Source: Clostridia bacterium
Lineage (GTDB): Bacteria; Bacillota; Clostridia; Christensenellales; CAG-138
Length of the DNA stretch: 64,000 nt
Assembly: GCA_017435905.1 (NCBI GenBank)
Contig: JAFSEB010000045.1
Location: forward strand, 1 to 64,000
Reading direction: 5' to 3'
Shown piece after piece: positions 26,143 through 29,105 of the stretch. Position 1 is the first letter of the stretch. Each line of letters opens with the position of its first letter. The notes beneath the pieces are model-generated. The model was not told where the DNA came from, did not search any database, and saw only the letters and a list, made by a program, of their open reading frames with translations. Made by a program: the position numbers and the translations under genes.

Positions 26143-26442
26143 TCAGCCTTCCTGCTTTGCCATTTTGTCCAGCACGGTCTTATAGCCATCCGCCCCGTAG
26201 GCAAGGCAGCGGTTGACACGGGAAATGGTGGCGGTGGAAGCGCCGGTTTTTTCCGCAATGGCGGTATAGGTCTCGCCGCTGCGGAGAAGCTTTGCCACCT
26301 CAAGCCGCTGGGAGAGGGCACGAAGCTCCGTTACCGTGCAAAGATCCTCAAAAAAGCAATAGCATTCATCCTTGGTCTCAAGGGCGAGGATGGCATCAAA
26401 CAGGCGGTCTGCTTCATCATTTTTCAGCTTTGTCTTGTACAT
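26143..26442 (-). CDS. YerC/YecD family TrpR-related protein
   Basis: A 99-residue DNA-binding protein related to the Trp repressor. The pattern FFEDLCTVTELRALSQRL followed by the helix-turn-helix TYTAIAEKTGASTATISRV is diagnostic of the YerC/YecD family, which is conserved in Bacillota but has no agreed target. Length is normal and AAAGGGAG precedes the ATG. A TTTAAC/GTTAAA palindrome lies over its predicted promoter, consistent with autoregulation. Confidence 0.9.
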   Translation of the reverse strand: MYKTKLKNDEADRLFDAILALETKDECYCFFEDLCTVTELRALSQRLEVAKLLRSGETYTAIAEKTGASTATISRVNRCLAYGADGYKTVLDKMAKQEG

Positions 26443-26521: not shown

Positions 26522-27286
26522 TTATTCCCTCGTCAGTTTCGCAAGGAACACACGGGTGCGCTCGTTCTGCGGATCGTCGATCACCTGCTCGGCGGTGCCT
26601 TCCTCCACGATCACGCCGCCTGCCATGAAGATGACACGGTCCGCCACGGAACGGGCAAAGGCCATTTCGTGGGTCACGATGAGCATGGTCATGTTTTCCC
26701 TGGCAAGGGCCTGAATGACGTGCAGGATCTCGCCGGTCAGCTCCGGGTCAAGGGCGCTGGTGGGCTCATCGAAAAACAGCATCTTCGGGCCCATGGCAAG
26801 GGCACGGGCAATGGAAACACGCTGCTGTTCGCCGCCGGAAAGCTGGTAGGGGTAGGCGTCGGCACGGTCGGAAAGCCCCATTTTTGCAAGCAGGGAACGG
26901 GCGGTATTTTCCGCCTCTGCCTTGCTTTTTTTCTGCACCGTGATGGGCGCATCGGTGATGTTTTTCATCACGCTGTAATGGGGGAACAGGTTGAAATTCT
27001 GGAACACAAGGCCGAACTTGCTGCGGATCTCCTTCAGTTTTGCGGCATCCCGGTAAACGGTCTTGCCGGAAGCATCCGGTGCGGCGGCGCTTTCGCCAAG
27101 GTAGGAAAGGCTGCCGCCGTCCATGGTTTCAAGCAGGGTCGCACAGCGAAGCAGGGTGGATTTGCCGCTGCCCGAAGGGCCGATGATGGCGACAACTTCG
27201 CCTTCCTTCACGCTGAGGGAGATATCTTTGAGCACCTCACGGCCGTCAAAGCTTTTTTTCAGGTTGTTGATCTCAAGAACATTCAT
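26522..27286 (-). CDS. polar amino acid ABC transporter ATP-binding protein
   Basis: A 254-residue ATPase of the GlnQ/HisP type: Walker [15 protein letters not shown]-loop QNFNLFPH, signature [15 protein letters not shown], Walker [15 protein letters not shown]. Third gene of the importer operon, 20 bases after the permease, with AAAAGGAG before the ATG. Substrate is decided by the binding protein, not by this subunit. Confidence 0.94.
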
Positions 27287-27306: not shown

Positions 27307-27957
27307 TTAGCGGTAATAGGACAGTTTGTGCTCAATGCGTTCCATGGCCCACGCCACCACAGCGTTGAAGATGTAGTAGAACACCGCCGCCGCCGCATAG
27401 GGCACCATGCTTTTTTCCGCCGAGGCGATCTGCTTGGAAAGGGTGAACATTTCAAGCACGCCGATGGCAAAGGCAAGGGAGGTATCCTTGACGAGGGTGA
27501 TGATCTCGTTGGTGGTGGGGGGCAGGATGCGCTTCACCATCTGGGGGAAGATGATGCGGCTGAAGGTCTGGCGCTTGGAATAGCCCAGCACCTCCGCAGC
27601 TTCGTACTGCCCCTTGGGGATGGATTCGATGCCGGCACGGTAGATCTCCGCAAAATAGGCGGCATAGTTGAGCACGAAGGCGATGATGACCGCATAAAAC
27701 CGGTAGCCGTTGGAAAGGGGGATCTTGAATACGAACCAGGGCGCAAAGTAGACCACCAGCAGCTGCAGCATCAGCGGCGTGCCGCGCATCACGCTGATGT
27801 AAACACGCATCAGCATGCTGAGGGGCTTAAACCGGCTCATGCGCCCGAAGGCGATGGGCAGCGCCAGCGGCAGCGCACCGAGAAGGGTGAGCGTGAAGAT
27901 CAGCACGGAGGTGAGCATACCCATGCCAAGCTGTTGGAGCATCGTTGCAAAACTCAT
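27307..27957 (-). CDS. polar amino acid ABC transporter permease
   Basis: A 216-residue His/Glu/Gln/Arg/opine family permease with about five membrane helices; YISVMRGTPLMLQLLVVYF and EIYRAGIESIPKGQYEAAEVLG are family hallmarks. Probably works as a homodimer. Separated from the upstream binding-protein gene by a 223-base structured gap. Confidence 0.94.
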   Translation of the reverse strand: MSFATMLQQLGMGMLTSVLIFTLTLLGALPLALPIAFGRMSRFKPLSMLMRVYISVMRGTPLMLQLLVVYFAPWFVFKIPLSNGYRFYAVIIAFVLNYAAYFAEIYRAGIESIPKGQYEAAEVLGYSKRQTFSRIIFPQMVKRILPPTTNEIITLVKDTSLAFAIGVLEMFTLSKQIASAEKSMVPYAAAAVFYYIFNAVVAWAMERIEHKLSYYR

Positions 27958-28002
27958 ACTGTTACCTTTCGTTGGGGGAGGATAAAAGGGATAAGACGGG
28001 AA

Positions 28003-28156
28003 AAACGCGGGCGGCAGAGGCTTTATGAAAGGAGGACATCGCCTTGATCAGCTGATCGGGAAGCGGTATCGGCGCCAAAGCAAACGGGAAAGCTGCTTTG
28101 CTGCCGATGCCGCCTCAAAAACGGCATGTCACTTTCTTGCCCCCTCGCCCGCGTTT
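28003..28156 (-). ncRNA. structured RNA element in the amino acid importer operon
   Basis: The ends pair perfectly over 11 bases: AAACGCGGGCG (28003-28013) with CGCCCGCGTTT (28146-28156). Inside, GCGGTATCGGC (28063-28073) pairs with GCCGATGCCGC (28103-28113), one G/U pair, enclosing AGCAAA/TTTGCT. ATGCCG (28107-28112) can instead pair with CGGCAT (28122-28127), which excludes the previous helix. On the minus strand the last arm runs into TTTTT, as in a terminator. It lies between the binding-protein and permease genes. Strand is inferred from the operon direction; no known riboswitch class was recognised. Confidence 0.5.
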
Positions 28157-28180: not shown

Positions 28181-28966
28181 TTATTTGCCGAGCACGCAGA
28201 CATCGTAGCCGAACCACTCCTCGGAGATCTTGGCGAAGGTGCCGTCCTCTACCATTTCAAGGAGGGTCTCTTCCACCTGATCACGCAGCTCGGTGTTGCC
28301 GAGTTTGAAGCCAACGCCGTACTGCTCGCTCTGCAGGGGCTGCTCCATGATCACGAACTGGTCTTCACGGCCTTCGATCTGGAAACGGGCAACGCCGATA
28401 TCCATGCCGATGGCATCCACCGCACCGGATTCAAGCTCCATGAAAGCGGTGTTGTATTCGGCGCACTGCTCAAGGGAAGCGAAGGAATCACGCAGGGCGA
28501 TGGCATCGGGGTTTTCCTCATCGTTCAGGGCAGCTTCGCAGGAGGAGTCTGCCTGCACGGTGACCACCTTGCCGGCAAGATCTGCAAAGGTGGCAAGACC
28601 GTCCGCAGCACGGGTCACGAATACCTGGGAGTTGTCGCAGTAAGCGCCGGTCCAGGTGTAAAGCTCTTCACGGCCGTTCATGGTGAAGCCGTTCCAGATG
28701 CAGTCGATAGCGCCGGATTCAAGCTCGAAATCCTTGGCGTTCCAGTCGATGGGGGAAAGCTTCAGTTCCCAGCCCCTGCGTTCGCAGACTTCTGCGGCAA
28801 GGTCAAGGTCAAAGCCGATGTAGTCGCCGTTTTCGTCGATGTAACCGTAGGGCGGGAAAGCGGCGTCAAAGCCGACGGTGAAGGTCTTGTCTTCCTTCTT
28901 GGCGCAGCCGAAGGCAGCGGTGAGAACAAGGGCAGCAACAAGCGTCAGCAGGAAAAAGCGTTTCAT
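28181..28966 (-). CDS. polar amino acid ABC transporter substrate-binding lipoprotein
   Basis: A 261-residue SBP_bac_3 lipoprotein with lipobox AFGC. FDAAFPPYGYIDENGDYIGFDLDLA is the family's N-terminal ligand block (residues 34-58), and MNGREELYTWTGAYCDN and VGFKLGNTELRDQV follow. It captures a polar amino acid outside the membrane. First gene of the importer operon; AAAGGA precedes the ATG. The promoter region has an unusual array of repeats at 28983-29020. Ligand cannot be predicted with confidence. Confidence 0.93.
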   Translation of the reverse strand: MKRFFLLTLVAALVLTAAFGCAKKEDKTFTVGFDAAFPPYGYIDENGDYIGFDLDLAAEVCERRGWELKLSPIDWNAKDFELESGAIDCIWNGFTMNGREELYTWTGAYCDNSQVFVTRAADGLATFADLAGKVVTVQADSSCEAALNDEENPDAIALRDSFASLEQCAEYNTAFMELESGAVDAIGMDIGVARFQIEGREDQFVIMEQPLQSEQYGVGFKLGNTELRDQVEETLLEMVEDGTFAKISEEWFGYDVCVLGK

Positions 28967-28982: not shown

Positions 28983-29020
28983 TACTATGCACATACCGTG
29001 CATTTAATGCACTACTATGC
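28983..29020. promoter_or_regulatory. palindrome flanked by direct repeats upstream of the amino acid importer
   Basis: TACTATGC occurs at 28983-28990 and 29013-29020, exactly 30 bases apart. Between them GTGCATTTAATGCAC (28998-29012) is a perfect palindrome with 7-base arms. The array lies 17-54 bases upstream of the binding-protein start and probably binds a regulator. It has some likeness to ArgR/AhrC boxes, but the match is loose. Confidence 0.55.
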
Positions 29021-29070
29021 TAACACATTAGTGTGCTAAAGTAAAGGGGTAAAAACATATATTTTTCAAC

Positions 29071-29105
29071 AAAAAAAGCGGAAAACAGTTTTTACTGTTT
29101 TCCGC
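29071..29105 (-). terminator. terminator of the VanZ-like gene
   Basis: GCGGAAAACAGT and ACTGTTTTCCGC form a 12-base-pair stem followed on the minus strand by TTTTTTT. Confidence 0.92.

Follow-up and report, generated by a model that had tools for sequence, protein, structure and literature searches.

The SBP-permease gap of an amino-acid-type operon

We analysed a 64,000-nucleotide stretch of DNA from a Clostridia bacterium (CAG-138), referred to below as the window. On its minus strand, three genes form an operon in the order SBP, permease, ATPase:

28181..28966, minus strand: family-3 (polar amino-acid type) solute-binding protein (SBP), operon gene 1 (SBP_bac_3, E = 3e-30)
27307..27957, minus strand: permease, operon gene 2 (BPD_transp_1, E = 9e-27; TIGR01726 above cut-off)
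26522..27286, minus strand: ATPase, operon gene 3 (ABC_tran, E = 9e-35)

The SBP was matched by the NCBIfam models of Lys/Arg/Orn, Gln and cystine binding proteins, every one of them under its curated cut-off. A Shine-Dalgarno-like AAAGG lies immediately 5' of the permease ATG. The first gap of the operon, from the SBP gene to the permease gene, is 223 nt long and contains a folded element, in the position between binding-protein and permease genes where a preliminary description of this DNA had placed it.

Two further features may bear on the control of the operon. Upstream of the SBP we found a promoter-like TTTACT-17 nt-TAGCAT (29017-29045, minus strand) whose spacer holds an operator-like inverted repeat, TAGCACACTAATGTGTTA. 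This arrangement is conserved in all four congeners, with the repeat lying between a TTTACT-type hexamer and, 17 nt further on, a TAGCAT, TATCAT or TACTAT hexamer; the flanks differ. Directly 3' of the ATPase gene is a gene for a YerC/YecD-family TrpR-like regulator (26143-26442, minus strand; TIGR02531, E = 8.8e-41), whose product is a candidate binder of the operator-like repeat. A regulated step of the operon may lie at the promoter rather than at the RNA element. The stretch that separates the SBP promoter from a VanZ-like gene also holds a clear terminator hairpin of 12 pairs with T7 after it on the minus strand (29078-29105), which is common to the window and congener G002 only.

Outer stem and adjoining U tract

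The element is closed by the following parts, given as RNA of the transcribed strand:

28146..28156, minus strand: 5' arm of the outer stem, AAACGCGGGCG, a perfect reverse complement of 28003-28013, kept in congeners G001, G002 and G003
28003..28013, minus strand: 3' arm of the outer stem, CGCCCGCGUUU
28001..28005, minus strand: U tract UUUUU, then CCCGUCUU; the first three U of the tract are paired to AAA in the 5' arm

In plus-strand letters, 28003-28013 reads AAACGCGGGCG and 28146-28156 reads CGCCCGCGTTT, its exact reverse complement, so the eleven perfect pairs reported earlier were recovered in full, as was the run of the closing arm into TTTTT on the minus strand. Eight of the 11 bp are G-C or C-G, and UUUUU follows directly, its first U's being paired to A's. 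The element thus has a GC-rich stem above the 7-bp minimum and a U-rich tract after it, the features by which internal terminators are recognised, and it also has their location: a hairpin directly 3' of the SBP gene that opens the operon, with the translocator genes 3' of it on the same strand. It is absent from a simple terminator scan because that scan permits loops of 3-8 nt only, and the outer arms in the window are 132 nt apart.

Among 2000 dinucleotide-shuffled versions of the gap, just 11 contained a perfect inverted repeat of at least 11 bp. The fold energy of the element on the minus strand is -79.7 kcal/mol, with folding z-scores of -7.0 for this strand and -5.4 for the plus strand, and none of 200 shuffles was equally stable. 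The fold is more than chance, and the structure is real. In the full-length fold the outer stem had a pair probability of ~1.0. Antitermination was considered and rejected for the window: when growing transcripts were folded, the 5' arm first paired with sequence just upstream of it, but this pairing was displaced by the terminator stem once the latter had been made.

Comparison with congeners

Four other genomes of the genus were compared, three of which contain an ortholog of the SBP (98, 91 and 88% identical). The SBP-permease gaps of these three congeners are 111, 115 and 99 nt long, compared with 223 nt in the window. In each of the three congeners with the operon, a core CGCGGGC...GCCCGCG occupies the corresponding position and has a U-rich tract after it (UUUUU, CUUUCUUU and UUUU); between the core arms there are 33, 11 and 12 nt in the congeners versus 134 nt in the window. 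The three congeners thus have a compact single stem-loop and the window does not, a compact form being the look of the published set of such terminators and not a proven functional requirement. The outer stem is close to invariant across the genus, and the few changes in it cost pairs at or near its ends; with so little variation, no compensatory covariation of the stem was seen within the genus.

When the window gap was aligned with that of the closest relative, a single major difference emerged: in the window, a domain of ~105 nt is inserted in the loop, near 28023-28127, with approximate ends. This domain was missing from all three congeners, including the relative with the 98%-identical SBP. 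With the domain lacking in 3/3 relatives, it is best explained as a gain in the window genome, although the genomes compared are few and the relatives may conceivably have lost it.

The inner domain

The ~105-nt domain is a long imperfect palindrome that contains two helices:

28023..28127, minus strand: extra domain of ~105 nt inside the loop, from pairwise alignment to G002; absent from congeners
28122..28127, minus strand: 5' arm of the short inner helix, pairing with 28107-28112
28103..28113, minus strand: 5' arm of the long inner helix, pairing with 28063-28073 in 10 pairs and one C.A mismatch on the minus strand
28063..28073, minus strand: 3' arm of the long inner helix, pairing with 28103-28113

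The short helix had been described as having six pairs, and ATGCCG (28107-28112) is indeed the perfect reverse complement of CGGCAT (28122-28127). The long helix, described as having 11 pairs, exists at its place with only 10 Watson-Crick pairs; at its remaining position the plus strand would pair U.G, but the minus strand, which is the one transcribed, has a C.A mismatch. The two helices cannot form together, as had been noted. Both lie within the insert and neither overlaps the outer stem; therefore, switching between them neither makes nor breaks that stem.

As to the origin of the domain, it might be a MITE/REP-like mobile palindrome that entered the terminator loop, or an artefact of the draft assembly; either would be compatible with a terminator at this place. 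The insert is nearly palindromic and its absence from the closest relative at the same position looks like an empty site. However, neither BLAST nor a covariance model detected a second copy in the window genome and the four others of the genus; a plus-strand match of the covariance model was the element's own palindrome seen from the opposite strand. Nor was a clear target-site duplication seen. We regard either origin as rather unlikely. A REP/MITE-type repeat, a multi-copy class, was rejected as an assignment, with a single copy in the five genomes of the genus. Searches of phage, plasmid and viral collections returned nothing resembling the insert. Searches of Rfam gave no match to the element at gathering or relaxed thresholds, only chance-level matches, mostly to microRNA families that fit a plain hairpin; this agrees with the earlier failure to recognise a known RNA class.

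Since the outer stem keeps a pair probability of ~1.0 despite the insert, the simplest view is that the insert would be a neutral or modestly tuning expansion of the loop. It probably alters the efficiency or the stability of the outer stem rather than adding a switch.

Hairpins at the SBP-permease junction of homologous operons

Homologous operons were surveyed in public genomes and in the family and order, the named records being mostly Lachnospiraceae, Oscillospiraceae and other Clostridia. A strong hairpin was present in 40 of 60 distinct SBP-permease gaps of at least 40 nt, where mononucleotide shuffles predicted 5.5, and 31 of the 60 had a strong hairpin with T's at its end (at least four T's within nine bases), where about 1.5 were expected. 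The scan required loops of 3-10 nt, so that the window's own element and that of G002 are not counted among these. In 90 operons with both junctions, a strong hairpin occurred 40 times at the SBP-permease junction and once at the permease-ATPase junction, a contrast that is partly due to gap length, the second gap having a median of 13 nt. Because the hairpin sequences differ between genera, it is position and shape that are conserved rather than sequence. The element is not essential, since the gap is shorter than 40 nt in about a third of the homologous operons.

Two of the gaps surveyed, L014 and L028 (208 and 212 nt), from two genomes of one genus, have at least two strong hairpins each and contain similar GGGG(G/A)CTGCG(G/T)CCCCGA(A/T)CCCCCGGA stretches, which could represent a repeat family.

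Proposed mechanism

We propose, with a probability of about 0.83 and from comparison of sequences, that the element is an intra-operon intrinsic (Rho-independent) partial terminator with an expanded loop, which would also stabilise the 3' end of the SBP mRNA. The preliminary description had named an expression-setting terminator within an operon among its options, and this option is supported by the three congeners out of three, by the junction-specific enrichment of hairpins and by a published mechanism. RNA polymerase leaving the SBP gene would transcribe the GC-rich outer stem and then the U tract, where some transcripts would stop, the remainder continuing into the permease and ATPase genes. 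The hairpin would cap and protect the short SBP mRNA, and the predicted outcome is an excess of SBP over the translocator. In the window genome the loop appears to have been enlarged by ~105 nt that would fold as a nested imperfect palindrome, leaving the outer stem intact. Because the outer arms are 132 nt apart, and the stem has to form around a large prefolded domain before the polymerase clears the U tract, the efficiency of termination in the window may be low. For the window operon, the structure, its conserved position, the insert relative to the congeners and the enrichment of hairpins at this junction are observed, and from these we infer termination, its efficiency and the SBP:translocator ratio.

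Alternatively, the hairpin might act mainly after transcription, not terminating but blocking 3'-5' exonucleases once the operon mRNA has been cut, so that the SBP segment lives longer, a process known as selective RNA processing and stabilisation (SRPS). The very stable fold (-79.7 kcal/mol) 3' of the SBP would suit this role; stem-loops of this kind are known from clostridial operons, according to one report (PMC8219983), and folding energy influences the stability of SBP mRNA according to Wu et al. (PMC9045158). However, pure protection needs no U-rich tract, and one follows the stem directly in 3/3 congeners, while T tracts, equally unneeded for protection, are enriched across the homologues. 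A mainly post-transcriptional role is therefore unlikely.

It is very improbable that the insert represents a regulatory domain, specific to this lineage and of recent acquisition, that tunes termination from within the terminator loop through a ligand, a protein or folding kinetics; if true, it would mean that a fixed-ratio terminator had been converted into a regulated one.

A riboswitch requires a conserved aptamer and a pairing in competition with the terminator. A riboswitch or attenuator had been among the earlier suggestions. The two mutually exclusive inner helices and the significantly stable fold would fit a ligand-responsive element of this kind, with the helices switching the expression of the permease, but this is scarcely credible: the inner pairing, which was to be checked in homologous gaps, is not conserved, the inner domain being absent from every relative, even one with a 98% identical SBP; the competing helices lie outside the terminator stem, whose pair probability is ~1.0; one of these helices carries a C.A mismatch on the transcribed strand; and Rfam holds no match.

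If the partial terminator proposed here is correct, it would show that a striking 'alternative-pairing' fold seen in a single genome need be no more than an ordinary terminator that sets expression ratios and has an enlarged loop. The window and its insert-free relative would form a natural pair for relating loop size to termination.

Comparison with known systems

In 2022, Wu et al. (PMC9045158) demonstrated by experiment that internal terminators set the SBP:translocator ratio in Clostridia. In Ruminiclostridium cellulolyticum, 16 stem-loops placed between reporter genes gave termination efficiencies of 20.7-96.1%, the evidence consisting of reporters and Northern blots; the set comprised single stem-loops only, no antiterminators were found in it, and the ratios were near-constant between carbon sources (PMC9045158).

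The window element resembles these terminators (PMC9045158) in its host, of the class Clostridia, in the position of the SBP at the 5' end of the operon, in the long GC-rich stem in the SBP-translocator gap, in the U tract partly paired with 5' A's, and in that no antiterminator pairing with the stem was found. In contrast to the published single stem-loops of -38 to -10 kcal/mol (PMC9045158), it carries a folded loop domain of ~105 nt and has an energy of about -80 kcal/mol. Unlike the terminators of the cellulolytic Clostridia (PMC9045158), it lies in an operon of the amino-acid type and is a predicted terminator. The mechanism shown in cellulolytic Clostridia would thereby be extended by one genus and to an amino-acid-type operon.

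As described in two reports (PMC8219983, PMC10311766), SRPS stem-loops of the cip-cel type in clostridial operons are likewise stable stem-loops at the 3' end of a gene within an operon that set transcript ratios. Those stem-loops depend on a nuclease cut, whereas the U tract of the window element points to termination.
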